64,000 nucleotides of DNA from Shewanella maritima (GTDB taxonomy: Bacteria > Pseudomonadota > Gammaproteobacteria > Enterobacterales > Shewanellaceae). The notes below the pieces were generated by a model. It had not been told where the DNA came from and searched no databases. It saw only the letters and a program-made list of their open reading frames with translations. Of this stretch, positions 8,148 to 38,817 are shown one piece after another (the stretch's first letter is position 1; each line of letters begins with the position of its first letter). The position numbers and the translations under genes are program-made. Location of the stretch: assembly GCF_004295345.1 (NCBI RefSeq), contig NZ_CP036200.1:1116001-1180000 (forward strand), in the 5' to 3' direction.

Positions 8148-9023
8148 ATGGCTTTGCCGCGATCAATCACAACAAACTACCCCATGACCCAAAGCAAAAT
8201 AGAGTGCCATATTAAGGTAAGCCAGCCAGACCAGGATGCAGTGAGTCTGCTTGCTGAGCAAACCAAGTTGTCAAAACAGGTGATTAAAAATGCCATGCAA
8301 AAAGGTGCGGTATGGCTTACTCGTGGTAAGCAAACCTCGCGCTTGAGACGTGCCAAAAAAGCACTAGCTGTGGGTAACGAGCTACACCTGTACTACAACG
8401 CCCATATTCTTGCGGAGCAAGTTACTCCAGCAAAAATGCTATTTGATGAAGGGCAATACAGCTTGTGGTACAAGCCTTACGGCATGCGTTGTCAGGGCTC
8501 AAAATGGAGCGACCACACAACGATTGATCGCTTTGTTGAGCTAAACGCCACGCCGCAGCGCAGTGCCTATCTAATTCATCGACTAGACAGAGCTGCAACA
8601 GGCTTGATTATTCTTGGGCATACCAAACAAGCAACTCGCGACATTGCAAAAATGTTCGAAACCCGCAATTTGAGCAAACATTATCAGGTTATCGTCAATG
8701 GTCGTTTCCCTGATGATGAAGTCACCATTAATACCGATGTTGATAATAAACCTGCGTTATCGCGAGCCAGACGTTTGCAATACAACAGCGAGCTAGATCA
8801 ATCATTAGTTCAGGTAAAAATTGAATCAGGTCGCAAGCACCAAATACGCATTCATATGGCAAGCTTAGGTCACAGCGTAGTTGGCGATCGCCTCCACGGC
8901 GATGCCGACGAAACCAGCCCAGACTTAAAACTCACCAGTTGCTACTTTGAGTTTATTTGCCCAGTAAGCAATGAGCGCAAAGTGTTCGAACTACCAGAGC
9001 AATATCGCCCCACGTTTGGCTAA
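8148..9023 (+). CDS. RluA-family RNA pseudouridine synthase
   Basis: Isomerises uridine to pseudouridine in rRNA or tRNA. The catalytic motif is intact as HRLDRAATG, with the nucleophilic Asp at about residue 147; WYKPYGM (motif I) precedes it, and SGRKHQIRIHMASLGHSVVGD closes the fold. The N-terminal 85 residues could be an S4-like RNA-binding element (KQVIKNAMQKGAVWL). Start is uncertain: ATGs at 8148 and 8184 both lack a clear ribosome site. The target base cannot be read from sequence. Divergently placed from lgt with an 84-bp gap. Confidence 0.85.
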   Translation: MALPRSITTNYPMTQSKIECHIKVSQPDQDAVSLLAEQTKLSKQVIKNAMQKGAVWLTRGKQTSRLRRAKKALAVGNELHLYYNAHILAEQVTPAKMLFDEGQYSLWYKPYGMRCQGSKWSDHTTIDRFVELNATPQRSAYLIHRLDRAATGLIILGHTKQATRDIAKMFETRNLSKHYQVIVNGRFPDDEVTINTDVDNKPALSRARRLQYNSELDQSLVQVKIESGRKHQIRIHMASLGHSVVGDRLHGDADETSPDLKLTSCYFEFICPVSNERKVFELPEQYRPTFG

Positions 9024-9136
9024 ATAAGCAACTTAGCTCAAAGTTGGTATTGAGTATGACACTTGGATTAAATAATCAAAGTCGCCGCCCATTTTACGCT
9101 AAGCTAAAAACACAAACTCTCATGGAGCATCTCACT

Positions 9137-9883
9137 ATGCAAGTTCGCCTTTTAAACCGTCTGTCTCAGGTAAGTATTTTTATCGCCTTGTTAGCTGCTA
9201 ATACACTTATTAGCACCAATGCGAGTGCCAACATAGATTTGAAGTATGACGACAACATTGAGCTCATTGCGGTTAACGGCGAGCTAGTTGAAGATGAGGG
9301 CACAACAAGACTAGAAGACACCAAGGCGAAACAACAGCTAGTGTTTAATGTGCGCAGTTTTTTCATGGAACGAGGCAATCGCGAGAAGTTTATCTCTGAT
9401 GTAATTGTCGTAACCTTTGATACTGCCTCGGTTATTTCTACAAATGCGCTTACCCTAAGCGCGGGTACGGTGCGCTCAAAAAAGGCTGGGAAAAAGTTTA
9501 ATAAAAATCCTCAAATTAGCCTTGAAACCAATACTGGCAATCAAGTTAGTTTTGTATACGACACCCTAAAGGTCAGTGGAATGCAACTTGGGCGTAACTA
9601 TCAAGCAGAAATCGCAGCATATAATCAAAGTAGTGATAGAGCATCTGTAGCCGCGCTAGCACCTGCGGTTACTGTTGCAACGCCCGTGGCAGCTTCAAAA
9701 GCACAAGTACAACCCCAACCTCAATCAACGGCACCAAGTGCACCAGCACCGCAAGCTAGCACAGAAATGACAGTCAAAACCATTGAGCAAGATCAAGCTG
9801 AAATCTTACAAATGCTGGATTACTGGTACAACAAAGCAGACGATACAACTAAGGCTAAATTTAAAGACAAGATCAACAACTGA
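9137..9883 (+). CDS. DUF2057 (YccT/CsgI-like) secreted protein
   Basis: 248-residue protein with a Sec signal peptide (FIALLAANTLISTNASA) and a DUF2057-type body: IDLKYDDNIELIAVNGELV followed by KQQLVFNVRSFF. E. coli YccT (CsgI) of this family affects curli assembly, but family function is otherwise open. A flexible Pro/Ala/Gln-rich linker (about 180-215) leads to a C-terminal helical tail ending DDTTKAKFKDKINN. The ATG at 9137 is selected because GGAG at 9124-9127 precedes it and the signal peptide then has normal length. Confidence 0.7.
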   Translation: MQVRLLNRLSQVSIFIALLAANTLISTNASANIDLKYDDNIELIAVNGELVEDEGTTRLEDTKAKQQLVFNVRSFFMERGNREKFISDVIVVTFDTASVISTNALTLSAGTVRSKKAGKKFNKNPQISLETNTGNQVSFVYDTLKVSGMQLGRNYQAEIAAYNQSSDRASVAALAPAVTVATPVAASKAQVQPQPQSTAPSAPAPQASTEMTVKTIEQDQAEILQMLDYWYNKADDTTKAKFKDKINN

Positions 9884-16858: not shown

Positions 16859-18223
16859 CTAGTAACCCGTGCTAGCGATTGGGTCCCAGTGTTTTTCGAT
16901 CTCTTGCTTGATAAAGGCGTCTTTAGCTTTTTGTGCATCCGACTCAACAAAGCCGATGGCCTTGTGGGCCGCCTCTTTGGTGCTGATATCTGGATACTGC
17001 GGCTCGCTGGCACCAATATGTCCAGCGACAAATTTAAGCACGTTACGGGCATCGGTTACCTGCTCAATCGCTTTATCTAGTAAAGCGTGACCTTCTTGTG
17101 GGTTATGAGCATATAGACCATGTGATGCCATGGCAAAATCCCAGCGCCATTGGGCATGGCGAATTCCCATAATCGCGTCATTCATCATTGGCCAAGTAGC
17201 ACCAGCATCCCAGGCTGCTTTTGCTTCATAGTGAGCTTTTACAAGTAAATCCTCTACCTTGCGAGCTTTAGCATCAATGTCCTTTTTGTGCTTATCAAGG
17301 GTTGAGGTAAGCTCAGCTTGGCTCTCATGGCAGCCTGCACAAGCAGTGTCGAAATGCTGTAGAGAATTGCCCACTTGATGGTCAGTGTACTCATTACCTT
17401 TAGCATCAGTTGCAGCTGGCATGTGGCAAGTCACGCAGGTGACGTTGACTTCGGCATGTTTGCTGCGACTCCAGTGCTCAAACTCAGGGTGACGTGCTTT
17501 TAAAATTGGCGTTTTCGAAATTGGATGGATCCACTCGTAAAAACGGCGTGTGTCGTAGTATTTCTCGATATCGTCAGCCGTGTTGCCGAAAATCCACGGA
17601 ATATTCACCTTGTTCTTGCGCTCGGGCTGGAAGTAATAAGTCACATGGCACTGACCACAGGTTTGCGCCCCTTGCATCGCGCTAGATTGCTTTTCAAACG
17701 GCAGGTGTACTTTTGCCATGGCGTCTTGTGCATGAGGACGTGGTAAAGCCAGCTTAGCGCTGCCATCGATATGACAATCGCTACAGTAAACCACTGACTT
17801 TATCTCTTGCCCTAAATCGACAAAGTTAGCATCACTAAATCCTTCAACACCCATTTCTTTCATCAGTCTTGGCGCATCAGGCGTTTTACAAGTCCAGCAA
17901 CTTGCCGATAAACCTTTCTCGCCTGCCGGTACGGCCGTGCCAGTACGCAGAGTACGTGACACATCTGCTACCGCAAATTGGTGACCTCTTGGGCTACGGT
18001 ACTCTTTGGCAAACGAGCTACCCGCCCACAAGATAATGCTGGCAGGATAATGCGCCAACATGTCTTCTGACTCAGACTGGGTTTGGGTAGCAGCCCAGGT
18101 TTCAAACTGTTTAGGAAACTTAACCTGATTAGCATCCGTTTCCGGCTGAGCAACTGCAGTGAGGGGCAACAGTAACGCCACACCACACCACTTTAAAAAA
18201 CTAGTACGACTCTCTCTCATCAT
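16859..18223 (-). CDS. nrfA: Ammonia-forming cytochrome c nitrite reductase
   Basis: Periplasmic pentahaem enzyme reducing nitrite to ammonia with six electrons; also reduces NO and hydroxylamine. The catalytic haem motif is CWTCK at 109-113, where lysine replaces histidine as the proximal ligand. Four CxxCH motifs follow: CSDCH 147-151, CGQCH 189-193, CVTCH 263-267 and CAGCH 295-299. A Sec signal (VALLLPLTAVAQ) exports it. 454 residues is normal. AGGA precedes the tandem ATGs at 18223/18220. The gene follows nnrS by 26 bp, so both are probably one transcript. No nrfBCD is near, as in Shewanella, where CymA supplies electrons (family knowledge). Confidence 0.95.
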   Translation of the reverse strand: MMRESRTSFLKWCGVALLLPLTAVAQPETDANQVKFPKQFETWAATQTQSESEDMLAHYPASIILWAGSSFAKEYRSPRGHQFAVADVSRTLRTGTAVPAGEKGLSASCWTCKTPDAPRLMKEMGVEGFSDANFVDLGQEIKSVVYCSDCHIDGSAKLALPRPHAQDAMAKVHLPFEKQSSAMQGAQTCGQCHVTYYFQPERKNKVNIPWIFGNTADDIEKYYDTRRFYEWIHPISKTPILKARHPEFEHWSRSKHAEVNVTCVTCHMPAATDAKGNEYTDHQVGNSLQHFDTACAGCHESQAELTSTLDKHKKDIDAKARKVEDLLVKAHYEAKAAWDAGATWPMMNDAIMGIRHAQWRWDFAMASHGLYAHNPQEGHALLDKAIEQVTDARNVLKFVAGHIGASEPQYPDISTKEAAHKAIGFVESDAQKAKDAFIKQEIEKHWDPIASTGY

Positions 18224-18249: not shown

Positions 18250-19461
18250 TTACCCTGGGCGACCATCAACTCGTGGTCGAGATAATATCGGAGCATAAAA
18301 CCAAACAAACATACCAAAACCCAAAGACCAACAAGCGCCAGCTAACCATAGCCACATTTGAGTGTGCTCTGGCATCCACAGCGGCATCACCGCTCGCAGC
18401 AAACCAGCAATAGGCAAACACGCAAAGGCCAACACCATATTTGGCCCTTGATAAATATTACGACTGGTATGCCCTAGTGATACCCGCGATATCATCGACA
18501 AGCATAATGACGCTAACCCACCTACGGCAAATAAGTGCAGCAAGGTGCGATAAGCAAACTCATTGTTGACATGCCATGCCATGGCGAGCAAGGTGACTGG
18601 CAGTGCAAGGTATGAAACATGTAATGACCACAACATAGGTTCTTTTAAGGTTTTGTGGCCTTGCCAACGACTAAAGCGCACTAACTGCAATAATCCGGCG
18701 GCGGCAAGAATGACCTGCTCGACACCTTTTGGCAACATATGCGTCAAAGCTTGTACAAATAGCGTGATCATCAGCAAGATTATGCACCAATCTAACCCTA
18801 CAATTGGCTCAGGCTTGTCGGCTTTTATGCGCATCGCGGTAAAAAACGGGATAACCCTGCCGCCCACAATGGTTATCACTACAGCAACCCACCAAATCAT
18901 CGCCTGCCAAATCTGCGTAGAGAGCGAGAAATCACGACTATATAAAGCGTAGTAACTGAGTAAGTTAACGAGCGCGGCAACCGTTAATAGGATAGGAAAA
19001 CCAATATTGCGCCACTGTTTAACCCTGTAAATACAGCGCCACAGCACACCTGCACTAATTAATAAAAATGCACTATCAAATATAGCTGGCAATATTAGGG
19101 GAATATTAAACGGCAACAGCAGCAATAAACGGGCTGCGAGCCAGCAGGCAAAGATAAGTGCTAGCGACTTACCTTTTACTGAGGGTTGATTGGTCCAAGT
19201 TTGCACTGCGGTAAGCAAAAAGCCACACACTATCGCTAGGGTAAAACCAAATAGCATTTCGTGAGGATGCCACCAAAGCGGCAGCACATTTGCCCAAAAC
19301 TCACCGTTAAACAAGCTGTATTTAGGGGTATACCATCCCATCAGCCACAGCGGAATGTACAACATGGCAAGTGCAGCGCCGCCAAGGAAGAATGGCCTAA
19401 AGCCAAGTCTGAAAATTGCGGGAGTGGTTTCTACCTGCTTAGGGTCGTCGATATTGAGCAT
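18250..19461 (-). CDS. nnrS: NnrS family haem-copper membrane protein
   Basis: Polytopic inner-membrane protein of the NnrS family (403 residues, about 12 hydrophobic spans), which binds haem and copper and helps cells withstand nitric oxide. The N-terminal RLGFRPFFLGGAALAM and the WWHPHEMLFGF histidine motif are family signatures, and the later histidines in MLPKG-x-HVSYLALP fit too. Upstream lies a site resembling the NO sensor NsrR's operator. Placement directly before nrfA, which also handles NO, makes a compact nitrosative-stress and nitrite-respiration unit. Confidence 0.9.
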   Translation of the reverse strand: MLNIDDPKQVETTPAIFRLGFRPFFLGGAALAMLYIPLWLMGWYTPKYSLFNGEFWANVLPLWWHPHEMLFGFTLAIVCGFLLTAVQTWTNQPSVKGKSLALIFACWLAARLLLLLPFNIPLILPAIFDSAFLLISAGVLWRCIYRVKQWRNIGFPILLTVAALVNLLSYYALYSRDFSLSTQIWQAMIWWVAVVITIVGGRVIPFFTAMRIKADKPEPIVGLDWCIILLMITLFVQALTHMLPKGVEQVILAAAGLLQLVRFSRWQGHKTLKEPMLWSLHVSYLALPVTLLAMAWHVNNEFAYRTLLHLFAVGGLASLCLSMISRVSLGHTSRNIYQGPNMVLAFACLPIAGLLRAVMPLWMPEHTQMWLWLAGACWSLGFGMFVWFYAPILSRPRVDGRPG

Positions 19462-19750: not shown

Positions 19751-21397
19751 CTAAGACTTCTTCAATGCGGCTAGCACTTCAATCGCGCGGGTACGAGCAA
19801 AGCTATGCTCTACAATCGGCGATGGATAACAGACGGCCTGCGCTTGTTCACCACTAGCATTAACGCCACTAGTGTCACTCATATTAGCACTAGCACTAAC
19901 ATTAACATCGGCGAACATATCTATCACTCTTGGTTCATTGTACTTAGCCTGACTCTCACTTTTGGAGTGCGTATTACCGAGATAGCCCCCACCGCTTGGA
20001 GGTTTGTGCAAAAGCTTAGGAGCGACGTTATTTAGCTCAGGCACGAAGCGTTTGATAAATATAGCTTGCGGGTCAAACTTCTCACTTTGCAAATACGGGT
20101 TGAATACTCGAAAATACGGCTGAGCATCACAACCAGTGCCTGCCGACCATTGCCAGCCACCATTATTGGCAGCAAGGTCGCCATCAATCAGCTTTTGTCT
20201 GAAATATCTCTCGCCCCAACGCCAATCCACCAGCAAGTGTTTGGTTAAAAAGCTAGCAACAATCATCCGCAATCGGTTATGCATCCAACCAGTTTGATTG
20301 AGTTGTCGCATGGCGGCATCTACTATCGGGTAACCTGTGCGCCCCTCACACCAAGCTGCAAATTCATCCGCGTCATTGCGCCATTGAATTCCATCACCAA
20401 GCACATTGAAATTAGCGTTTTTACTTAAGCGTGGAAACGCCGCAAGTAAGTGGCGGTAAAACTCTCGCCAAATAAGCTCGTTAATCCATGTTTTACACAC
20501 ACTGGTTTCATTGACTAAAGCATCAGGATAATAGAACAATACAGCGGCAATACACTGGCGAGGACTCAATACCCCCAAAGCCAAATAGGGCGATAAACTA
20601 CTGGTACCATCAATGGCAGGGATATCTCGCTTAGCTGAATACTGACTAATATGTCCTTCAATGAACTGATTTAAGCGCTCACTCGCAGCCTCCTCGCCTG
20701 CACTCCACTGTTCACTTGACACGCGCTCGATATAACTATCACCAAGCTCAAACCTAACAGGCTCATATGCAACTTGGCTCCCCTGCTCACATCCATGCAT
20801 AACTTCGGGCACAGGCAGAGGAGCAAAAGACTCAGACATAGCTTTGGCTCGCCACTGCTTACTAAACGGCGTAAACACCTTATACATGTCGCCGCTTAGG
20901 TTGGTGACACTACCAGGTGTAATGGCGCAGTGCTGCTCAAATAGATTGAAGCTAACGCTTTTACTTTCAAGCAGAGCATGCAGCCGAGAATCACGCTGGC
21001 GCTCGTTGTGTTCCAGTTCGCTTGATGCGTAAATAGCCTTAATATCATGCTGCGCAATATAAGCTAATAACAGCTCATCAACGCCATCAAAATCATCACA
21101 GGTGAGCACATCTAGCTCAATGCCCAGCTTGGCAAGGTTCTCGCCCAGCAAATTGACATGACGCTCAATAAAGTCGATTTGCATAGCGCCAACATCATGG
21201 GCAAGCCACTGTTTAGGCGTAACAATATAGGCCGCACGCAGTTGGGCTGTTGAGGCCGCATTTGCTTCAGTGACAGTGGCTGTTTTTGCTTCTACGACAG
21301 TAGCAGTGTTGCGCGAGCGAATGTCGCTGCAGGCTTGATAAAAAGCCTTATTGTCCGCCAGGCGTAGATCCTGACGGAACCAGATCAATGAGTTCAT
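19751..21397 (-). CDS. phrB: Class I CPD deoxyribodipyrimidine photolyase
   Basis: Light-driven repair of cyclobutane pyrimidine dimers using FADH and an antenna cofactor. The antenna domain begins SLIWFRQDLRLADN; the FAD-binding region has WINELIWREFYRHLL, WCEGRTGYPIVDAAMRQL, WMHNRLRMIVASFL and NNGGWQWSAGTGCDAQPYFRVFNP-type motifs. The 548 residues exceed the usual 470, because of two low-complexity inserts: residues 27-52 (a duplicated TATVVEAK/TATVTEAN unit) and a Ser/Ala-rich stretch near the C-terminus. The DUF523/DUF1722 gene lies 53 bp upstream on the same strand. Confidence 0.92.
   Translation of the reverse strand: MNSLIWFRQDLRLADNKAFYQACSDIRSRNTATVVEAKTATVTEANAASTAQLRAAYIVTPKQWLAHDVGAMQIDFIERHVNLLGENLAKLGIELDVLTCDDFDGVDELLLAYIAQHDIKAIYASSELEHNERQRDSRLHALLESKSVSFNLFEQHCAITPGSVTNLSGDMYKVFTPFSKQWRAKAMSESFAPLPVPEVMHGCEQGSQVAYEPVRFELGDSYIERVSSEQWSAGEEAASERLNQFIEGHISQYSAKRDIPAIDGTSSLSPYLALGVLSPRQCIAAVLFYYPDALVNETSVCKTWINELIWREFYRHLLAAFPRLSKNANFNVLGDGIQWRNDADEFAAWCEGRTGYPIVDAAMRQLNQTGWMHNRLRMIVASFLTKHLLVDWRWGERYFRQKLIDGDLAANNGGWQWSAGTGCDAQPYFRVFNPYLQSEKFDPQAIFIKRFVPELNNVAPKLLHKPPSGGGYLGNTHSKSESQAKYNEPRVIDMFADVNVSASANMSDTSGVNASGEQAQAVCYPSPIVEHSFARTRAIEVLAALKKS
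21260..21307. repeat. Two 24-bp tandem units within phrB
   Basis: Units 21260-21283 and 21284-21307 encode TATVTEAN and TATVVEAK. They form an in-frame insertion after the first helix of the antenna domain. Confidence 0.85.
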
Positions 21398-21450: not shown

Positions 21451-22413
21451 TTAGTAGGCGTAACGTAAACGCATCTCTTCAGGGTGTGGGTTTAAATACA
21501 CCTGATCTTCAATGTAAGGCGTTGGAAACTGAGCCAAATAATGGTTAATCAGTGTAATTGGCACCAGCAGGGGCACAAGTCCTTCGCGATACTTCATAAT
21601 GCTTTGGGTCAGCTCTTGCTTTTGAACTGGAGAAAGCTGCTTTTTAAAGTAGCCTTGAATGTGTTGCAACGTGCTAGTGTGATTTTTTCTAGTAGCGCGA
21701 ATTTTTAGCGCGGTCATAAAGCCATCAAAATAAGCATCAGCCGTAGCATCAAGGTCTTGAATATCTGCAAGCAGAGGCCCTAACTCACGATACCAAACCG
21801 GGCTATGCGCCATCAGCAAATACTTATAGCGAGAGTGAAACTTAATTAGCTTGTGCTTGGTTAAACCTGAGCGGCGCATTTGCTGCCAATCATTGTGTGC
21901 ATAAACGCGGGTGAAAAAGTTCTCTCTCAGTACCAGATCATGCAAACGCCCTGATTCTTCAACAGGCAGGTGCGGATAGGTAGCCATTAACTTTTTAGTG
22001 AATACACCAACACCATCTTTGCTGCCGTTGTTGGTATCGATTTTATATTCGGTTACGCGCTCCATCCCACAAGTGGGCGATTTGGCACAAACGATATAGC
22101 CATCAAGGTGCGCAAGACTGGGAATTTTTTTATCGCTAAAAGCTTCAAGCTGCTCGGTAACGTCCAAGCTACCGTCTGCGCTGCGCACATATAGTTTGTC
22201 GCCATCTCGCACTTGACGAATACTTTTGCGGGGCGCGCCCATACCGATCGCCATTTCAGGGCATACTGGCACGTAATCAAAAAATGGAGCGATTTCTTTC
22301 TTGCAGTATAGCGACTGCTTATGCCCGCCATCAAAGCGAACCTTTTCGCCCAGCAAGCAGCTACTAATACCAATATTAATCTTGTGTACACCTTGCTCAG
22401 AAACTTGTTCCAT
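21451..22413 (-). CDS. DUF523-DUF1722 fusion (TudS-like plus YbgA-like)
   Basis: 320 residues. The N-terminal DUF523 half (1-160) holds three conserved cysteines, SSCL (Cys19), PVCPE (Cys51) and SPTCG (Cys115), as in thiouracil desulfurase TudS, where three cysteines hold a [4Fe-4S] cluster. The C-terminal half (from NFFTRVYAHNDW) is DUF1722, the E. coli YbgA domain. E. coli ybgA also adjoins phr. The ATG at 22413 is chosen for the GAGGTG upstream. The likely role is in sulfur or thionucleotide handling; substrate and link to photolyase are unproven. Confidence 0.85.
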   Translation of the reverse strand: MEQVSEQGVHKINIGISSCLLGEKVRFDGGHKQSLYCKKEIAPFFDYVPVCPEMAIGMGAPRKSIRQVRDGDKLYVRSADGSLDVTEQLEAFSDKKIPSLAHLDGYIVCAKSPTCGMERVTEYKIDTNNGSKDGVGVFTKKLMATYPHLPVEESGRLHDLVLRENFFTRVYAHNDWQQMRRSGLTKHKLIKFHSRYKYLLMAHSPVWYRELGPLLADIQDLDATADAYFDGFMTALKIRATRKNHTSTLQHIQGYFKKQLSPVQKQELTQSIMKYREGLVPLLVPITLINHYLAQFPTPYIEDQVYLNPHPEEMRLRYAY

Positions 22414-22579
22414 AATCACCTCACCTGACCAATCTACGTTGGGTTCCTTGGCTTGCTAAAAACTGAAGCTCACCTTCATGACAAGCGTTAAAATCGTTTT
22501 TAAAGTATACGCTTAACAGACAAAAAAGGTTTAATTTCAAGGATAAAACTAAAAAATAATTACAGTAAAATTGGCATAA

Positions 22580-31345: not shown

Positions 31346-31888
31346 CTAGCGCCCGTTAACCTTTGAAATAACTAGAGTCACCTTAGCGACGGTGATACCA
31401 AACTTAATAATATCGCTTTTGTTAATAATGGTGTTGTCGTCTACAAGGTACATCCAATCGTCAAAATGAACCTGATAGGTATCGCCATCAACGGGCAGCA
31501 TCATATCGTAACGCCAGCGCAGTGCACTGCCCTTAGCTTGACCCAGTGCTTCACCTAGTATGTCATCCGCTCTGCCCTTGTATTTACCATCACCAAGATC
31601 TGTCAAATACCAAAAGCGCGTCTGTTTTTCACCATCATCATAGATAAACCACTCTTTTAGCAGCCCTTCATTCCCTTGCCATGATCCTTCCATCGACACG
31701 GTGAACTTTCGCACAACTTTGCCTGAATAATCCTCAACTACACCTGCGGCGTATAACTCGCCTTCAAAAAACTTTTTTAAATCAAGTTTGGGATTCGTAT
31801 CGACATAATCATCAATGCTAGGCGATGCGCAGGATGCCAATAGCAAGGTAAACAAGACAAAAACAAACGCCTTAACTCTATTCATCAT
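31346..31888 (-). CDS. DUF3833 lipoprotein, last gene of the lipid-stress operon
   Basis: 180-residue lipoprotein. The lipobox LLLASC places the lipidated cysteine at residue 20; the DUF3833 core includes LKKFFEGELYAAGVVEDYSGKVVRKFTV and FDDWMYLVDDNTIINKSDI. Role unproven, but the gene repeatedly occurs in the same cluster as CFA-synthase-like and DUF1365 genes. It overlaps the chalcone-isomerase-like gene by 11 bp, so it is cotranscribed with it. Confidence 0.82.
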   Translation of the reverse strand: MMNRVKAFVFVLFTLLLASCASPSIDDYVDTNPKLDLKKFFEGELYAAGVVEDYSGKVVRKFTVSMEGSWQGNEGLLKEWFIYDDGEKQTRFWYLTDLGDGKYKGRADDILGEALGQAKGSALRWRYDMMLPVDGDTYQVHFDDWMYLVDDNTIINKSDIIKFGITVAKVTLVISKVNGR

Positions 31889-32669
31889 TTGCTCCTACGG
31901 GATTTAGCTGTGAGACTTTTTGAGGATGGGAGTTTGGTTGGGCATTTGATAAAGAGTTTAGTGGCGTATTTGACGCTGTCGCGGAGTCAGCGTTTAGAGT
32001 ATCGCTCGGTAGTTCTTGAGCATAAGTTATCGACGAATCTACACTTGCTTCAGAATCAATAGACTCAAGAGGCAAGTCAAAACTGTCGCCTAACAATGCT
32101 TGCCTAAGACCGGGTTCACTGGTGTTTTCAGATAACCAAATCGATACAAACGCCTGACTAAAATAGGGAGTTGAGACTGTGTGGACATGCTCATCATTGT
32201 ACCAAAATGCACCTTCGCCATTGGTGTTAACTTTAAATGTCAGCCTGTCACCTTGTTTAACATCCGGCCAAGCATGCTTTAGTGAGGGAGCAAACTCATC
32301 AATCAAAGACTGCGCCATACCGAGGTGTTGCCATTGGTCAACCGTTGCCTCAATTAAGTCGTCAGCTTCAATATCGCGATAATACTCAATGTCCAAAATC
32401 AGCGGCTGCTGCTTACTAAAATATCTACCATCTTCAGTGAGTAACTTGGCTCGGTAAACATCAAACCACATAAATGACATTTCTCCTTCGCCCACTAACT
32501 TGAACTCTTCAAAGCTAACATTATTGGGTAGAGGCTGAGCAGCCAAATTTTTTGCTACAAGCCCACTACTCACTAGACTCGATATCATTAACAATCCAGC
32601 TAGCGCTGGTGTAGACAGATTTGATTTAGTGGGTAATAGGTTCGATTTATTGGGTAATAGATTGGTCAT
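31878..32669 (-). CDS. Chalcone-isomerase-like exported protein
   Basis: 263 residues with the bacterial chalcone-isomerase-like domain (KLVGEGEMSFMWFDVYRAKLLTEDGRY, and DLIEATVDQWQHLG). The fold binds fatty acids in its relatives, but the catalytic residues of plant chalcone isomerase are not conserved. A signal-type hydrophobic segment comes at 25-42. The C-terminal 60 residues are Ser/Asn/Pro-rich and unique. The ATG at 32669 is chosen because it overlaps DUF2878's end; two 21-bp units give a repeated LLPNKSN/LLPTKSN before the signal. Confidence 0.8.
   Translation of the reverse strand: MTNLLPNKSNLLPTKSNLSTPALAGLLMISSLVSSGLVAKNLAAQPLPNNVSFEEFKLVGEGEMSFMWFDVYRAKLLTEDGRYFSKQQPLILDIEYYRDIEADDLIEATVDQWQHLGMAQSLIDEFAPSLKHAWPDVKQGDRLTFKVNTNGEGAFWYNDEHVHTVSTPYFSQAFVSIWLSENTSEPGLRQALLGDSFDLPLESIDSEASVDSSITYAQELPSDTLNADSATASNTPLNSLSNAQPNSHPQKVSQLNPVGANDE
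32622..32663. repeat. Two 21-bp tandem units in the chalcone-isomerase-like gene
   Basis: Units 32622-32642 and 32643-32663 (18 of 21 alike) encode the NLLPTKS and NLLPNKS repeats directly after MT at the start. Confidence 0.85.
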
Positions 32670-33168
32670 CTTGGCCTCGATTAACTGCACTCATGTTGGC
32701 AATAGCAATCAATACGGGCAGTAAGATAGACCAGATCAAAATTAAAGCTATGACACTGTTGGTCATCGAGTAACCAAGCTCAACCGCGCCAAACTTGTAG
32801 CCAGCTAAATAACTAATGGTGCCGAACACGCCACCGAAAATCGCTTGAAGGTAAACAGAGAGGCGAGACAAGAAGCCCAAACTATATTGTAGGCTTATCG
32901 CAAAAATTCCCCAAAGCACCATCAGCCACACAGGGGTTGAAGAAAAGATAAAAAAGCCAGAAAAGATGAGCGCAGCATCAACACTGATACCAATTAGTGA
33001 AACAAACCACATGACGCGCAAATCACGCATTTTGTGTTTTGATAAAACGAAATGTCCGAGCAACAGCAGGCTAGATAACCACAGGTAAACATTGCCCCAA
33101 AGCACACCAAGCCACCAAATAGCCTGAAAGCTAACCAGGTTAAAAATCATCATATACAACGAGGTCAT
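32647..33168 (-). CDS. DUF2878 inner membrane protein
   Basis: 173 residues with five or six hydrophobic helices. FQAIWWLGVLWG at the N-terminus and RDLRVMWFVSLIGISVDAALIFSGFFIF are typical DUF2878 segments. No function known; it recurs beside cfa-like and DUF1365 genes. It overlaps the next gene by 23 bp and starts 54 bp after the CFA-like gene, consistent with one operon. Confidence 0.8.
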   Translation of the reverse strand: MTSLYMMIFNLVSFQAIWWLGVLWGNVYLWLSSLLLLGHFVLSKHKMRDLRVMWFVSLIGISVDAALIFSGFFIFSSTPVWLMVLWGIFAISLQYSLGFLSRLSVYLQAIFGGVFGTISYLAGYKFGAVELGYSMTNSVIALILIWSILLPVLIAIANMSAVNRGQDDQSITQ

Positions 33169-33222
33169 ATTTCCTCCTACGATAACCTTTCAAACTGTTG
33201 ATGGGCTAGATATTGCGAGACG

Positions 33223-34482
33223 CTAACTAATGCTAATGCGATAATCTGGCTTGTTAGCCACCAGATGCACTGCACTGGTTGTACGCTCTAAAAAGCCACC
33301 TTCGCAGTAACTAAAATAAAACTTCCACATACGAACGAAATCATCGCCATAACCCAGTTGTTTTACCTTGTCGTACGCGGCGTCGAAATTATGATGCCAG
33401 TCAGCCAATGTACGCGCATAATCATAGCCAATATCATCAATCGAACACGCCACCATGTCAGTCTTATTCGCGAGGTGTTTGGTCATCTCACTCACTGATG
33501 GCAGGCAACCTCCGGGGAAGATATAGGTCTGGATAAAGTCAACTCCGCTGCGATAGCTATCGTATCTTTGGTCGGCAATGGTAATGGCCTGAATAAGCAT
33601 GCGTCCGTCTGATTTAAGCAGCGAGTTAAGCTTGTCAAAGAAGCCACTTAGGTACTCATGCCCCACAGCCTCGATCATTTCGATGGACACTAGGCGGTCA
33701 AATTTACCCTCGAGTAAACGGTAGTCTTGTTTTAGTAGGGTAACTTTATCCTGCAAACCCAGCTTTTCAATACGTGCTTTCGCGTAGTCATACTGTGCAT
33801 CGGATATCGTAGTTGTGGTTACCTCAACGCCATAGTGCTGAGCAGCATAAATGGCTAACGCGCCCCAACCGGTACCAATCTCAAGTAAGGTCTGGCCTGG
33901 CTTTAAATCAAGACGCTTACAAATGGTATCTAACTTATGGATTTGAGCCTGCGCCAGGCTTGAGTCGATAAACGGATAAATTGCGCTTGAGTACAACATT
34001 TCTGGGTCAAGAAACTGCTGGTACATGTCGTTACCTAAATCGTAGTGCGCAAGGATATTGCGTTTTGAACCCGCCTTAGAGTTACGATTAAACATGTGCT
34101 TGAAGCGATTGACCACTCGACTAAACCAGGAGAACTTGCCTTCGATGCTATCAAGCAGAGCTAGGTTTTTGGCAAACACCTGCACGACTTTGGTTAAATC
34201 AGGGCTAGTCCAATGGCCTTGGATGTAAGCTTCACCGGCACCAATTGACCCACCAGTTAACACCTGACGATAAAAACTTGGGTGGGTAACCTGAATACTG
34301 GCATGAATATCTGATTTAGGATCACCAAAGCTCTGCGAGCCACCGTTTCCCTGCTCTGCGGTGTCATGAATGGTGAGAAACCCGTGTTGCAATCCAGATA
34401 GCGCTTTTAATATGAGCTTTTTCGCCACGTTTTGAGAAAGCGTCGCCTGAGTAAGTACAGATCCGTTAGCTGTATTTTCCAT
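33223..34482 (-). CDS. CFA-synthase-like SAM-dependent lipid methyltransferase
   Basis: 419 residues. The SAM site LLEIGTGWGALAIYAA (about 199-214) and the C-terminal FPGGCLPS and YSYCEGGF-type segments are those of cyclopropane fatty acid synthases, which methylenate unsaturated phospholipid acyl chains. Compared from memory with E. coli Cfa, Glu271 (SIEMIEAVG) matches the catalytic Glu239, but Ser166 (YSSAIY) replaces Cys139 and Gln298 (MLIQAI) replaces His266, two bicarbonate ligands. Tyr in GYDYARTL is kept. The product could be a cyclopropane or a methyl/furan acyl chain. Third-from-middle gene of the operon. Confidence 0.88.
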   Translation of the reverse strand: MENTANGSVLTQATLSQNVAKKLILKALSGLQHGFLTIHDTAEQGNGGSQSFGDPKSDIHASIQVTHPSFYRQVLTGGSIGAGEAYIQGHWTSPDLTKVVQVFAKNLALLDSIEGKFSWFSRVVNRFKHMFNRNSKAGSKRNILAHYDLGNDMYQQFLDPEMLYSSAIYPFIDSSLAQAQIHKLDTICKRLDLKPGQTLLEIGTGWGALAIYAAQHYGVEVTTTTISDAQYDYAKARIEKLGLQDKVTLLKQDYRLLEGKFDRLVSIEMIEAVGHEYLSGFFDKLNSLLKSDGRMLIQAITIADQRYDSYRSGVDFIQTYIFPGGCLPSVSEMTKHLANKTDMVACSIDDIGYDYARTLADWHHNFDAAYDKVKQLGYGDDFVRMWKFYFSYCEGGFLERTTSAVHLVANKPDYRISIS

Positions 34483-34616
34483 TTTTCACTCCGTTGCAAC
34501 ATGATTTGCTAATGTAAAACCAATAATTAAGTTAGAAGCTTATACGCACACAAAGAGGATTTGGTTTAACGTGTATCAATTCGAATAACTTAAGTTCGAG
34601 TATGCGCCTAATACGC

Positions 34617-35525
34617 TTAGACCTCGGCATTCTTCGAGACCAGCGCACTCTTGCCAAGAAATGGGATCTTCTTGCGCCAGATCTTGAATGCTTGCCAGTA
34701 AATACGCGCAACTATGCCAAATGTCATCAAAGGAAAGCGCCAGGCAAAACTTCGTAAATTCGCTTTAGAAAAAGGTTGCTGTTTGAGTGCCATATTGGCT
34801 TCAAACAAACGCTGACGACCACTATCTAGGTTGCTGATACTGATAGAAAACTTATTTTCTGGTGGCAATACTCGCCAGCGATATTGCATATCGAGCCCCA
34901 TGAATGGCGAGACTAAAAAGTCTTTGTCTGTCATTTGGGTTGTCGATAAGTCCACTAAATAACAATGTCTTTCATTCCAAGGCGTGTTACTCACTTCAGC
35001 CAACATCACTCGCGCTTGCCCATCTTGATAGCAAAAGTAAAAATTAACCGGACTGAAGTAAAATCCAAAGTGGCGCACCTGTCCGGCAAACAACACCTTA
35101 TCAATACAATCTGGGTCAAAAGCCTCAGTTTGAGGAGCTTGAACGCCCTGCGACGCTTGTGGCTCTTGTGAAAAGCGGGATAGCTGAGTGCTATGCTGCT
35201 CAGCTAAACGCTTAACCACTGATATGACCCGCGACTTAAGCGCACTGGCACTATCTTCCGATTTAACTATCGCTAGCTCTTCGTCAAACTGCTTATCAAG
35301 CTGATTAAGGTAGTCATTGCAATTAAAACGTATTGGAGCAAAACCAGATGATGAAAAGCTGGCACTAAGCTCAGAGAGGTTATTTAACTCATCAAGGTCA
35401 ATTACTAACATGGCAAAAGGATAATTAAACTGATGCACACTAGGCGCAAAGCGTCTGTGCATGACACTGCCTCGATAAATGCCGCCGTTAAATTCGCAAT
35501 GCGCACTGTCAGTTTTCTTATCCAT
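34617..35525 (-). CDS. DUF1365 protein
   Basis: 302 residues of DUF1365 (GGIYRGSVMHRRFAPSVHQFNYPFAMLVIDLDEL; RHFGFYFSPVNFYFCY; EVSNTPWNERHCYL). The family is almost always next to an FAD oxidoreductase and a CFA-synthase-like gene, as here, and is believed to take part in acyl-chain modification; no reaction is established. Its start overlaps the FAD gene's stop by one base (35525). A central 30-residue Gln/Ser-rich stretch, including SQEPQASQGVQAPQTE, looks like an insert. Confidence 0.88.
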   Translation of the reverse strand: MDKKTDSAHCEFNGGIYRGSVMHRRFAPSVHQFNYPFAMLVIDLDELNNLSELSASFSSSGFAPIRFNCNDYLNQLDKQFDEELAIVKSEDSASALKSRVISVVKRLAEQHSTQLSRFSQEPQASQGVQAPQTEAFDPDCIDKVLFAGQVRHFGFYFSPVNFYFCYQDGQARVMLAEVSNTPWNERHCYLVDLSTTQMTDKDFLVSPFMGLDMQYRWRVLPPENKFSISISNLDSGRQRLFEANMALKQQPFSKANLRSFAWRFPLMTFGIVARIYWQAFKIWRKKIPFLGKSALVSKNAEV

Positions 35526-36793
35526 TAGAGTTCAACCCCAAGCATATTGCACACATCAACCGCGCTGCGCACACCGTCTTCATGAAAACCGTTATACCAA
35601 TATGCGCCAGCAAAATAGGTATTGTTTTTACCATTAATAAGTCCGCGCTGAGCCTGAGCATCGCTCGCTGCTTGATTAAATACTGGATGAGCATAGTTAA
35701 ACTTACGTAAGATTTTCGACTCATCAATCAGTTGCGTTTGGTTTAAGGTTACACAAAACGTCGGTGAGCCTTTAGGCAATCGCTGCAGAATATTCATGTT
35801 ATAGGTCACACTCGCAGGTCGTGACAACAGCTCCGCCTGGCTCGCCCCATCTAAACGATAGTTCCAACTTGCCCACGCAGCCTTGCGCTTTGGCAACAAA
35901 CCGGTGTCTGTGTGCAGCACTACCTCGTTGTTTTGATAAGCCAAATCACTCAGCAACCGTTTCTCATCATCACTGGCATCACTCAGCATGGCTAACGCCT
36001 GATCGCTATGACACGCAAGTACCACATCATCAAAAAGCTTAACTTCACCGTTATTAAGTGTAAGTTCAACACCATCATCGCTGCGCTTCACCTGCTTGAT
36101 TGGCGTATTAAGGTGTATCTTGTCCGCATATGGCGCGGTTAAACCTGGAATATAGCTGCGTGAGCCGCCTTCAAGGACATACCACTGCGGCCTGTCGCTG
36201 ACATTAAGCAAGCCGTGATGATGGAAAAAGCGAATAAAGAACTGCAGCGAGAATACCCGCATATCGTCAATACTTGCCGACCAAATAGCCGCGCCCATTG
36301 GCAAAATATAGTGCTGAGAAAAATACTCGCTAAAACCTTGCTCGTCTAAGAATTGCCCTAATGAGGCATAAGGAAAATTGTCTTGCTCATACAGTTCTTT
36401 GCAAATGCGGTTAAAGCGTAGGATCTCTTGTAAAAATCGATAAAATCTAGGGTTCAGTAAATTGCGTTTTTGCGCAAACATGCTCCAAAGACTATGGCCA
36501 TTGTACTCAAGCCCAGTCAGCGCATTGTGCACGCTAAAACTCATTTCAGTTGGCAACGAGCTCACGCCAATCTGCGCCATGAGTTTTTGAAATCGAGGGT
36601 AAGTGCGATCGTTAAATACGATAAAGCCAGTATCAATTGCATAACTTTTGCCATCGACTTCGACATCGACGGTTGCCGTGTGCCCGCCAATATAGTCATT
36701 GGCTTCAAACACAGTCACATCATACTGTTTACTCAATAAATAGGCTGAAGTTAAACCTGCAATACCACTTCCTACTACGGCTATTTTTTTCAT
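35525..36793 (-). CDS. FAD-dependent NAD(P)-binding oxidoreductase
   Basis: 422 residues. The N-terminal dinucleotide motif AVVGSGIAGLTSAYLL (5-20) and the ExxxxxGG segment VFEANDYIGGH follow the amine-oxidase/phytoene-desaturase-like pattern. FIVFNDRTYPRFQKLM and AGAYWYNGFHEDGVRSA are family-conserved. Likely an acyl-chain desaturase/oxidoreductase acting with the CFA-like enzyme; equivalents in alphaproteobacteria are linked to methyl- and furan-fatty-acid synthesis, which is an analogy, not shown here. Overlaps DUF1365 by one base. Confidence 0.85.
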   Translation of the reverse strand: MKKIAVVGSGIAGLTSAYLLSKQYDVTVFEANDYIGGHTATVDVEVDGKSYAIDTGFIVFNDRTYPRFQKLMAQIGVSSLPTEMSFSVHNALTGLEYNGHSLWSMFAQKRNLLNPRFYRFLQEILRFNRICKELYEQDNFPYASLGQFLDEQGFSEYFSQHYILPMGAAIWSASIDDMRVFSLQFFIRFFHHHGLLNVSDRPQWYVLEGGSRSYIPGLTAPYADKIHLNTPIKQVKRSDDGVELTLNNGEVKLFDDVVLACHSDQALAMLSDASDDEKRLLSDLAYQNNEVVLHTDTGLLPKRKAAWASWNYRLDGASQAELLSRPASVTYNMNILQRLPKGSPTFCVTLNQTQLIDESKILRKFNYAHPVFNQAASDAQAQRGLINGKNNTYFAGAYWYNGFHEDGVRSAVDVCNMLGVEL

Positions 36794-36876
36794 TTTACGT
36801 CCTGTTTGTGATTGCCTTTGTTTGTCCAGCTTATCTTGTAGCTAATTCAAATTATTCGAGTTTTACCTGCTTTGCC

Positions 36877-37824
36877 TTAAACCTGTTTCACCCGTTTAGT
36901 TGCTGATGATTTGCTATTTGATGTTAATTTCGGTCCAGAATCTTGCTTGTTACGAGAACTTTTGTTGTTAGCATCAGCCCCTAATAGTTTGAGCTTGATA
37001 AATGTCGGCAACATGCCTAATAACTTCAACATATAGGTGAATCGCCTAGGGAAATGAATATCATTGCGGCCAACTTTCATGCCTTGATAAATATAACTTG
37101 CTGCTTGCTCACTAGAGATGCGCATTGGCATCGAAAAATCATTTTTGTCAGTTAACGGTGTTTGAACAAACCCTGGATGGATGACACTGACATGTCGCTT
37201 AGATGCTTGGAGATCTACGCGCAAGCTTTCTGCCAAATAAGTTACTGCAGCTTTTGATGCGCCATAGGCTTGAGCACGGGGAAACGGCAAATAAATTGCG
37301 CTCGAACTCATTAAAGCAATGCGCCCATCCTCGACTAACAGCGGCAAAAAGGCCTCTAAGCAAAAACCTGTTGCAACAACATTAGTATTGATGACCCTAG
37401 CAAACAGGTCACTGTCAAAACGCGACACATCATCTATGTACTCGCAACTTCCCGCATTAAGCACAACTTGAGTGAGGCTTAGATTTTCATCGGCAATGAG
37501 CTGCTTTAGTTGCTCACCGGCAGATAACACCTGCTGCTTGTTGGTAATATCAAAACTAAGCTGATGAATCTTGCCTTGAACACAACCGGTCGATGAGTTG
37601 TTGTCGAACGAGATTGCACAACTAGCCGCCAAACATGATTCCTCCAGCAACGCTAACTTAGCGCTGTTGCGCCCGCAAGCAATGACCTGCCAACCCTGAT
37701 CAAAATAATGTTTTGCTAGACTGTAGCCAATGCCCGAACTGGCCCCGGTAATAAGGACACAAGGCATTGTATTTTGGCCATTAAACTCTGTTGAGCTAGA
37801 GCCTGCTATATATTGTTTACTCAT
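36877..37824 (-). CDS. Short-chain dehydrogenase/reductase
   Basis: 315 residues. Cofactor motif TGASSGIG (about 26-33), NAG (LNAGS) and the catalytic Ser in MSSSAIYLPFPRAQAYGASKAA with YGASK as the YxxxK pair. The C-terminal tail is Ser/Lys-rich and variable. The ATG at 37824 overlaps the preceding NTF2-like stop by 8 bp and has a GGTGG ribosome-site match; earlier in-frame starts would enter that gene. Substrate is unknown, probably an acyl-derived keto group given its neighbours. Confidence 0.85.
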   Translation of the reverse strand: MSKQYIAGSSSTEFNGQNTMPCVLITGASSGIGYSLAKHYFDQGWQVIACGRNSAKLALLEESCLAASCAISFDNNSSTGCVQGKIHQLSFDITNKQQVLSAGEQLKQLIADENLSLTQVVLNAGSCEYIDDVSRFDSDLFARVINTNVVATGFCLEAFLPLLVEDGRIALMSSSAIYLPFPRAQAYGASKAAVTYLAESLRVDLQASKRHVSVIHPGFVQTPLTDKNDFSMPMRISSEQAASYIYQGMKVGRNDIHFPRRFTYMLKLLGMLPTFIKLKLLGADANNKSSRNKQDSGPKLTSNSKSSATKRVKQV

Positions 37825-38386
37825 CTGTTGCCACCCGCTGTTTAATTTTGTTAATCGCCCAACCAAGCACAGGTATGTGTTGATAAACCATAGCTGCTCC
37901 ATCGAAGTAGTCCCTGTGGAACATCACCTTGTCGGCAAATTTGAGTTGGCTCATGCCTTCAACTTCAATTGGCTCACCCTTGGCGAGTTTGGGGTGTTGA
38001 TAGGTCATAGTCCAAAACACGCTGGCATGTCGAACATCTAAACTCTGCGGCTGACCTGAACTGATATCAACCTGGTGAATATCGAACTTGATGGCAAGCA
38101 CGTTTTCATACATGCCAGCAAAGTAGTGCTTCAGCTGTTGCAATCCTTTGATGTGATGAAGCGGATCTTTAAACTCGATTTGCTCGTTATAGACTTCATC
38201 AAGTAGGCTCAAATTATCTTTACCTAGCTTCTGATACATCGCGATAAAATTTGCAATAGCACTAGGCAGCTCAGCTTCAACGCCTTGAGCATTAATGCCC
38301 TGTACGCTTTCACTTTTAGCTAACTTAACCTCTGTGCCGTGCGTAGTGCTTGCTGGCACACTCGCTAGGTTGCTGGCATCAGCCAT
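37817..38386 (-). CDS. NTF2-like (SnoaL-type) protein, first gene of the lipid-stress operon
   Basis: 189 residues. The first 45 are a low-complexity leader; the NTF2-like fold follows (NFIAMYQKLGKDNLSLLDEVYNEQIEFKDPLHHIKGLQQLKHYFAGMY and WTMTYQHPKLAKGEPIEVEGMSQLKFAD). Members bind small hydrophobic ligands or act as isomerases. It is the first gene after the ECF11-like promoter (38484-38509) and overlaps the SDR gene. Confidence 0.82.
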   Translation of the reverse strand: MADASNLASVPASTTHGTEVKLAKSESVQGINAQGVEAELPSAIANFIAMYQKLGKDNLSLLDEVYNEQIEFKDPLHHIKGLQQLKHYFAGMYENVLAIKFDIHQVDISSGQPQSLDVRHASVFWTMTYQHPKLAKGEPIEVEGMSQLKFADKVMFHRDYFDGAAMVYQHIPVLGWAINKIKQRVATDE

Positions 38387-38397
38387 ATTTACTCCCT

Positions 38398-38444
38398 ATC
38401 TTTTATCGAACCGATCTTTTATCGACCTTATCTTGTATCGATCA
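38398..38444. repeat. Imperfect 16-bp tandem repeat upstream of the NTF2-like gene
   Basis: Units ATCTTTTATCGAACCG (38398-38413), a second from 38414 and a third, weaker from 38430. They lie in the transcript leader between promoter and start codon. Confidence 0.75.
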
Positions 38445-38483
38445 ACGGCCTGCTTCAAAAACAAAAAAATAACTGCTTAACAA

Positions 38484-38509
38484 TACGTTAAAAGTTAGCT
38501 CAAGGATCA
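38484..38509 (-). promoter_or_regulatory. ECF11-type (RpoE/ChrR) promoter for the lipid-stress operon
   Basis: On the minus strand TGATCC (-35, at 38504-38509) and CGTA (-10, at 38484-38487) are 16 bases apart. This matches the motif I recall for ECF11 sigma factors that answer to singlet oxygen through ChrR. It lies about 100 bases before the first start codon. rpoE and chrR themselves are not in this window. Confidence 0.65.
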
Positions 38510-38522
38510 GTTCATGTCTCTT

Positions 38523-38548
38523 TTTATCTCAAATGTATTTGAGATAAA
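38523..38548. promoter_or_regulatory. Perfect 12+12 palindrome upstream of the ECF11 promoter
   Basis: TTTATCTCAAAT (38523-38534), spacer GT, then ATTTGAGATAAA (38537-38548). It ends 14 bases from the -35 box, an activator position for the minus-strand operon. It resembles a MerR- or TetR-type site; the protein is unknown. Confidence 0.6.
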
Positions 38549-38817
38549 GCTTGCTCAGTCAACAATTTCTAGCCTCGCCAATTTTTACGCTTTGAAAACA
38601 AATTTCAAACACCTAACACACGTCTGCAAAACAGCTAACAAACACTTTTCGAAAACTCGCCCTCAAAACCGCCTCAATATGCGCCTTTGCTAGGTAGATC
38701 ACAGCATACAAGTGCAAAAAACATACAATGCGCGCCCTTTGAATTTTCATCGCAGCACGGTGAAGCCCAAGGTCTCAACCCTTGTGAAAACCAAGATCAA
38801 ACTAGAGCGCAGCATCC
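38549..38817. other. Gene-free stretch between palindrome and ygjV
   Basis: AT-rich. I see only promoter-like DNA for the plus-strand gene and no coding frame or hairpin. Confidence 0.5.

Follow-up and report, generated by a model that had tools for sequence, protein, structure and literature searches.

The 64-kb window analysed here, bases 1116001-1180000 of one 4.72-Mb Shewanella contig, carries an eight-gene lipid operon preceded by a predicted promoter, TGATCC-N16-CGTA, of the class read by ECF11 sigma factors (ECF, extracytoplasmic function), whose partner is the anti-sigma factor ChrR. Comparison with relatives makes it very probable that this promoter ancestrally lay inside the photolyase gene phrB and was relocated to an intergenic gap in the window clade; on the best reading of the sequences, 38484-38509 is a derived location, replacing a site within phrB. 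A broader proposal, which we consider probable, is that the codons of the photolyase motif FDPxGxFIR also encode the promoter, with its synonymous bases fixed by selection wherever phrB feeds the operon in ChrR-positive relatives and the promoter reappearing intergenically once that gene order is broken, that embedded sites in DUF2878 evolved at least twice, in two registers, and that the regulon puts relay promoters inside its own coding genes. The gene set and its control are already known; the new part is the promoter proposed to be dual-coded in the photolyase codons of relatives, which could not be seen from the window alone.

An earlier reading made from the letters of the window (the sequence-only reading) had described eight same-strand genes with short gaps or overlaps, forming the singlet-oxygen core gene set and following one promoter, TGATCC-16 nt-CGTA. 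A check of open reading frames (ORFs) and Pfam domains bore out the layout and the gene set: eight minus-strand genes span 31346-38386, overlap or lie no more than 134 bp apart, and carry, in gene order, SnoaL_2, adh_short, Amino_oxidase, DUF1365, CMAS, DUF2878, Chalcone_3 and DUF3833 domains. The operon and its predicted promoter comprise the following features (CFA, cyclopropane fatty acid; SAM, S-adenosylmethionine; CHI, chalcone isomerase).

38484..38509, minus strand: predicted ECF11-type promoter TGATCC-N16-CGTA, intergenic, 98 bp before the NTF2 ATG
37817..38386, minus strand: NTF2/SnoaL_2-like protein, first gene (ORF and Pfam)
36877..37902, minus strand: short-chain dehydrogenase (SDR; adh_short), true start probably near 37824
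35525..36793, minus strand: FAD amine-oxidase-like protein, UfaD homologue (family and gene order)
34617..35525, minus strand: DUF1365 protein, UfaO homologue (family and gene order)
33223..34482, minus strand: CFA/UfaM-like SAM-dependent fatty acyl methyltransferase (Pfam; UfaD-UfaO-UfaM order as in R. palustris)
32647..33168, minus strand: DUF2878 protein (ORF and Pfam)
31878..32690, minus strand: chalcone-isomerase-like (CHI) protein, Chalcone_3, start at GTG 32690 or ATG 32669
31346..31888, minus strand: DUF3833 protein (ORF and Pfam)

Among 97 genomes of the genus, the NTF2 gene is present in 74 and ChrR scores over cut-off in 70; both occur in 68, NTF2 only in 6, ChrR only in 2 and neither in 21 (Fisher p 6e-14, without phylogenetic correction). 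Among the 73 fetched loci plus the window, one order of all eight genes is kept in 69; L126 and L130 are without DUF2878 by this search, L133 is without the last three genes, and L161 stops at a contig end. Directly before NTF2 lies phrB in 54 of the 74 genus loci, nrfA in 18, and neither in 2, the window and G184. The window is sister of the nrfA group (19 tips, support 0.954), with which it shares the promoter-NTF2 arrangement.

Where phrB precedes NTF2, the nearest TGATC[CT]-N15-17-CGTA lies inside phrB in 48/50 ChrR-positive genomes and in 0/4 genomes without ChrR. Placed some 145-360 bp ahead of NTF2, the embedded site has the sequence TTT GAT CCn nnn ggn nnn TTy ATh CGT Ann, which translates as F-D-P-x-G-x-F-I-R-x, in 47 of 49 parsed ChrR-positive genes, and the protein spacing of FDPxGxFIR gives exactly 16 bases between the promoter words. 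In G202 the site begins at about 3522208 on the minus strand of contig 1. CGT is followed by a codon for K, N, T, M, I or R (AGA) that nevertheless always begins with A (47/47 in the genus and 23/23 of the embedded sites at order level). In the nrfA group the site is found in phrB in 0/16 parsed genes, with Lys in place of Arg and Pro kept in 15, G193 having also lost Pro; all 18 genomes instead have TGATCT-N16-CGTA in the gap from nrfA to NTF2. The window has neither gene in front of its operon. Its own copies of ybgA, phrB, nnrS and nrfA lie downstream of the operon on the same strand, phrB 9.9 kb away, in agreement with the 10 kb given by the sequence-only reading.

21451..22419, minus strand: YbgA-like protein (2-thiour_desulf and DUF1722), precedes phrB in relatives; exact promoter absent here
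19751..21397, minus strand: phrB photolyase, no longer coupled to the lipid operon in the window lineage
20045..20077, minus strand: phrB codons at the position of the relatives' site, TTT GAC CCG ... AAA CGC; site absent
18250..19461, minus strand: NnrS, after phrB
16859..18223, minus strand: NrfA-like cytochrome c552, directly before NTF2 in 18 sister genomes

Neither an embedded nor an intergenic site was found in G184, which has no ChrR, and among six parsed genomes without the operon gene the embedded site occurs in one (G223, ChrR-positive, with phrB near a contig end). The tree places the losses of the site on three branches without ChrR, on the uncoupled clade and on one pair in which chrR is adjacent.

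Constraint on these codons was measured in 49 ChrR-positive phrB genes, across 110 columns that combine a conserved amino acid with a synonymous choice. Only three columns reach 98% use of one codon (F TTT 48/48, D GAT 49/49, R CGT 48/49), and these are the codons holding the fixed site bases T, GAT and CGT; the next-best conserved columns reach 0.90 for D, 0.92 for F and 0.53 for R. The Pro codon varies in its third base, a spacer position (CCA 27, CCT 15, CCC 7). The combination T-GAT-CGT is carried by 48/49 genes, where the codon usage of each gene predicts 8.7, and with columns treated as exchangeable the chance of these being the top three is 1/215,820. A second, independent set of 25 ChrR-positive loci at order level, from other genera and picked for similarity of NTF2 and a parsable phrB without regard to the site, gave the same three columns, alone among 138, at 100%. 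All nine ChrR-positive phrB-class genes with GC content at third codon positions (GC3) above 0.55 (up to 0.68) keep the site, where 1.04 were expected, and the nrfA-class phrB genes, with GC3 of 0.35-0.46, are without it; since the site is kept at high GC3 and lost at low GC3, GC content is not the cause. A codon table of 40 loci was selected on the site itself and was not used as a test. Two earlier readings were set aside: matches inside phrB as coding artefacts, dropped after the codon tests and the ChrR-less genomes, and a conserved intergenic promoter in 29/30 relatives' loci, dropped when many of the matches proved to lie inside phrB.

These data bear on three other explanations. That the phrB pattern reflects shared codon preference or protein constraint without promoter function, the operon still being an ECF11 target as published, appears unlikely: AT-rich usage does favour TTT, GAT and CGT, the FDPxGxFIR amino acid motif is itself conserved, and the evidence for a phrB-internal start is all comparative, yet other D, F and R columns vary where the three site columns are near-invariant, the codons are freed in uncoupled AT-rich genomes and kept in GC-rich ones, and intergenic copies with equal N16 spacing appear instead. 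Somewhat less likely still is that the codons form the site of another regulator or an RNA-level signal at the phrB-NTF2 junction. Constraint at the DNA level does not by itself name the protein that reads it, but the constrained bases are the exact ECF11 -35 and -10 words at the spacing of the consensus given in PMC5507510, within the genus the site goes with ChrR, and intergenic TGATC[CT]-N16-CGTA can take its place.

For the window itself, the match at 38484-38509 could be a coincidence, another promoter driving the operon; we regard this as the least credible of the three. The source genome holds 8 exact TGATCC-N15-18-CGTA sites against 24 for the reversed control, and because the reversed pattern outnumbers the real one, without enrichment, the pattern alone is no evidence. 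The match at 38484-38509 is the sole exact TGATCC-N15-18-CGTA in the 64-kb window. Against coincidence, shuffled windows gave 0.16 expected sites (64 kb, both strands; 16/100 shuffles had one), which scales to a chance of about 0.0005 for one strand of the 430-bp gap at 38386-38816. Six of the eight genome sites lie inside ORFs on either strand; the other two precede the NTF2 operon and the sigma-anti-sigma pair rpoE2-chrR. The TGATCT-N16-CGTA in the equivalent gap of 18/18 sister genomes likewise argues against chance. As to further promoters of this kind, for which the sequence-only reading had proposed a search, one, with N15, was found before rpoE2-chrR, and the six other matches lay inside ORFs. 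Two of those six, TGATCC-N17-CGTA at 614083-614109 and 3922651-3922677 of the source contig, lie within other genes about 600-660 bp upstream of fabB-like and fabA-like genes (unsaturated fatty acid synthesis), possibly by chance.

Several observations weigh against an ancestral promoter inside phrB. The genomes are related, so the counts are not independent. Two ChrR-positive genomes miss the embedded site, G198 (CGT CGA) and G230 (CGG CGC), sisters in which chrR is adjacent. Outside the genus, the site is absent from 19/19 Pseudomonas loci with phrB directly upstream. The exact site upstream of ybgA (treated below) is present in just 4/17 ChrR-positive genomes of the nrfA group. Conversely, G283 (L293, in phrB) and G219 (L107, intergenic) keep a site with ChrR not found, which may reflect a recent loss or a gap in the assembly (that of G219 has 810 contigs).

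The relocated promoter would be read in trans. The sequence-only reading had noted that the sigma/anti-sigma pair is missing from the window and had proposed a distant ECF11 factor, and a profile search of the source genome agrees on both counts: ChrR is absent from the window, its single match lying at 4413144-4413821 (TIGR02451 202.7 bits, cut-off 124.5; PF12973 39.4 bits), with an ECF sigma ORF directly upstream (TIGR02937 92.2 bits, cut-off 42.9). The translation contains the ChrR zinc motif HxxxCxxC, as HLEYCGKC, and a C-terminal Cupin_7 domain, and TGATCC-N15-CGTA precedes the rpoE2-chrR pair at 4.41 Mb, 3.26 Mb from the operon on the contig or 1.46 Mb the other way if it is circular. 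TGATCC-N15-17-CGTA is thereby present before both the operon and rpoE-chrR, as in an ECF11 regulon. With sigma and ChrR under a promoter of their own elsewhere in the genome, and those two sites alone outside ORFs, the assignment of the window operon as a trans target of the distant ECF/ChrR pair holds at the level of sequence. A gene with a LON-substrate-binding domain, at 8604-9167 on the minus strand of locus L010, stands directly before rpoE2-chrR, as SO_1987 does in S. oneidensis, with no exact promoter site upstream. The view that the gene set normally lies beside rpoE-chrR fared less well: ChrR is within 5 kb of NTF2 in only 15/68 genomes, a single clade, and unlinked in 53/68. In a sample of 143 genomes of the class, DUF1365 occurs in 39 and ChrR over cut-off in 5, all of which also have DUF1365; the lipid genes are thus more widespread than the sigma pair.

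The separate promoter of ybgA follows linkage to chrR. An exact site 36-59 bp upstream of ybgA is present in 35/35 ChrR-positive phrB-group genomes with unlinked chrR, and in 0/15 chrR-adjacent and 0/4 ChrR-less genomes of that group; none is present in the window. In G202 this site is the published SO_3386 promoter. The chrR-adjacent genomes without it likely rely on read-through. Given a separate ybgA promoter, the embedded phrB site would be an additional start for the lipid genes.

Beyond the genus, the 30 best NTF2 loci of the order were taken, two of them from the same genus (G155, G353). A parsed phrB motif lies upstream in 24, with the site in 23/24; in G404 the phrB site has been lost and an intergenic copy is present instead. 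The other six comprise four with an intergenic site, G306 with none, and L266, which starts inside phrB and shows the site. Of 13 order genomes without ChrR, 12 have the operon; phrB is directly upstream in 5, with the site in 1 of those (G283), and the 7 operons without upstream phrB have no site within 600 bp of NTF2. Both genomes with upstream phrB among 7 further ChrR-positive ones hold the site (G470, G457), and the five without it show an intergenic site in three and none in G400, NTF2 not being located in G332. In 80 UfaD loci phrB is directly upstream in 48 and the site is present in 20 of those (18 parsed, two Pseudidiomarina), from Shewanella, Motilimonas, Pseudoalteromonas, Colwellia, Thalassomonas, idiomarinas, Aeromonas, Veronia and Thaumasiovibrio. 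In this set it is absent from Halomonadaceae, Photobacterium phosphoreum and Rheinheimera, as from Pseudomonas. Since P. syringae has an ECF11/ChrR pair (PMC5507510), having the pair does not imply having the site, and the taxa without it make the embedded site a lineage trait rather than a consequence of having ChrR. In G139, of the same order (L175, L176), rpoE-chrR-ybgA-phrB-NTF2-SDR-UfaD-UfaO-CFA form one run, and DUF2878-CHI-DUF3833 stand by themselves on a different contig, as a separable module.

The closest described system is the RpoE2-ChrR regulon of S. oneidensis MR-1, where promoters of this class precede both the operon SO_3386-SO_3374 and rpoE2-chrR (SO_1986-1985), and SO_3386 transcription rose on induction or overexpression of RpoE2 (PMC4336711). 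It matches the window in gene set, in the TGATCC-N16-CGTA class and in the unlinked rpoE2-chrR; the window operon differs in being detached from ybgA-phrB. The promoter published there precedes ybgA (SO_3386), and a promoter internal to phrB (SO_3384) is not mentioned in the passages covered. In P. syringae DC3000, the PSPTO_1043/1042 regulon has the consensus TGATCC-N16-CGTA and a phrB-led cluster with SDR, UfaD, UfaO and CFA homologues, as here, with its site placed before phrB (PMC5507510).

Bacterial intragenic promoters are known that likewise lie inside an upstream coding gene and feed downstream genes, and maps of in-gene starts reportedly exist for Shewanella. The phrB site differs from those in being tied to one ECF sigma factor, in lying in codons of a conserved motif and in being constrained at the codon level in several genera. 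Titles and abstract starts in a limited search of open papers gave no report of an ECF11 promoter internal to phrB. Promoter words under DNA-level constraint inside a coding gene are seen in relatives; the window offers only the DUF2878 candidate described below.

The products of the operon can be placed by comparison with the furan fatty acid pathway. Methylated furan fatty acids are made by the enzymes UfaM, UfaD and UfaO. UfaD corresponds to RSP1091 and UfaO to RSP1090, and in R. palustris RPA2571-2570-2569 are UfaD, UfaO and UfaM (PMC7380195). In the window all three families are present and adjacent in the order UfaD-UfaO-UfaM, the FAD protein matching UfaD, the DUF1365 protein UfaO and the CFA-like protein coming third as in RPA2571-2569, and the R. 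sphaeroides pathway genes are ECF11-controlled as well (PMC7380195, PMC6852236). The CFA-like gene scores 290 of 400 bits, under every CFA equivalog cut-off; its tentative assignment to UfaM, and not to a cyclopropane synthase, is drawn from gene order. These homologues suggest furan fatty acid synthesis. The window adds DUF2878, Chalcone_3 and DUF3833 to the R. sphaeroides/R. palustris set, and its pathway is predicted from genes. The core of the sequence-only reading, a trans target with the singlet-oxygen gene set, stands; the operon and promoter it described had already been published for S. oneidensis, and homologues of its UfaD-like and DUF1365/UfaO proteins have demonstrated reactions.

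In the mechanism we propose, the eight genes would be an operon for furan fatty acids and the membrane, which RNA polymerase reads with the help of the ECF11 sigma factor RpoE2, freed from ChrR under singlet oxygen or related stress as established in relatives. The ancestral promoter would be intragenic, its -35 TGATCC and -10 CGTA spelled by F-D-P and by R and the A-first codon of FDPxGxFIRx, adding lipid-gene transcription to that from upstream of ybgA-phrB. In the window clade phrB would have been separated from the operon, its codons released and the function taken over by the intergenic site, RNA polymerase starting inside phrB in relatives and at 38484-38509 here, with a predicted start near 38475-38478. 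Lipid-gene output would rise above the ybgA-phrB level and close a positive feedback loop; singlet-oxygen-driven ChrR turnover is reported to need the furan fatty acid enzymes (PMC6852236), so the purpose may be a stronger output of that loop. If this is right, a well-studied stress regulon has a conserved promoter that escapes any promoter search confined to intergenic DNA, part of photolyase codon choice is set by the regulation of a neighbour and not by the protein, and the furan fatty acid genes receive a strong ECF11 input that bears on the feedback setting the response. As a set, genomes that differ in ChrR presence and in phrB coupling constitute a natural experiment on promoter moves between gene and gap.

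A second embedded promoter, for CHI-DUF3833, is likely, with less certainty, within the window operon itself, its start being predicted at about 32703-32707.

32713..32738, minus strand: candidate second promoter TGATCT-N16-CGTA, in the DUF2878 3' end, 23-44 bp before CHI

In a scan of 468 kb of operon coding sequence, the sense pattern occurs 28 times in DUF2878, 9 times in UfaD and 0 times in the other six genes; the antisense and reversed controls gave 0 each and the scrambles 0, 1, 8 and 2. The DUF2878 sites lie near the 3' end, just before CHI, in two clades and two registers. One clade comprises the window and 14/18 nrfA-class genomes, reading ATC TGG ... CCC GTA; the invariance of this 15-genome subset is partly selected, the unselected counts being 15/19 here and 13/13 in the other clade. 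There GTA is preceded by a codon for L, I, S or F that always ends in C. In UfaD, TGATCT-N17-CGTA occupies a fixed place in G158, G173, G200, G210, G217, G218, G221, G229 and G238, all nine in the DUF2878 register-2 clade; a scrambled control also matched 8 times in UfaD.

DUF2878 follows the CFA gene, is present in 57/80 UfaD loci and is probably a membrane partner of the furan fatty acid pathway. The CHI-like and DUF3833 genes travel together (26 loci shared of 27 each), and a guess is that their products bind modified acyl chains in the envelope or transport them. A sequence search among solved structures found no relative of the DUF3833 or CHI-like protein (best E 0.94 and 0.72). LLLASC at the start of DUF3833 is lipobox-like. 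The source genome holds a second Chalcone_3 match, at 3772644-3773135, which scores far better than that of the operon (202.6 bits vs 48.5).

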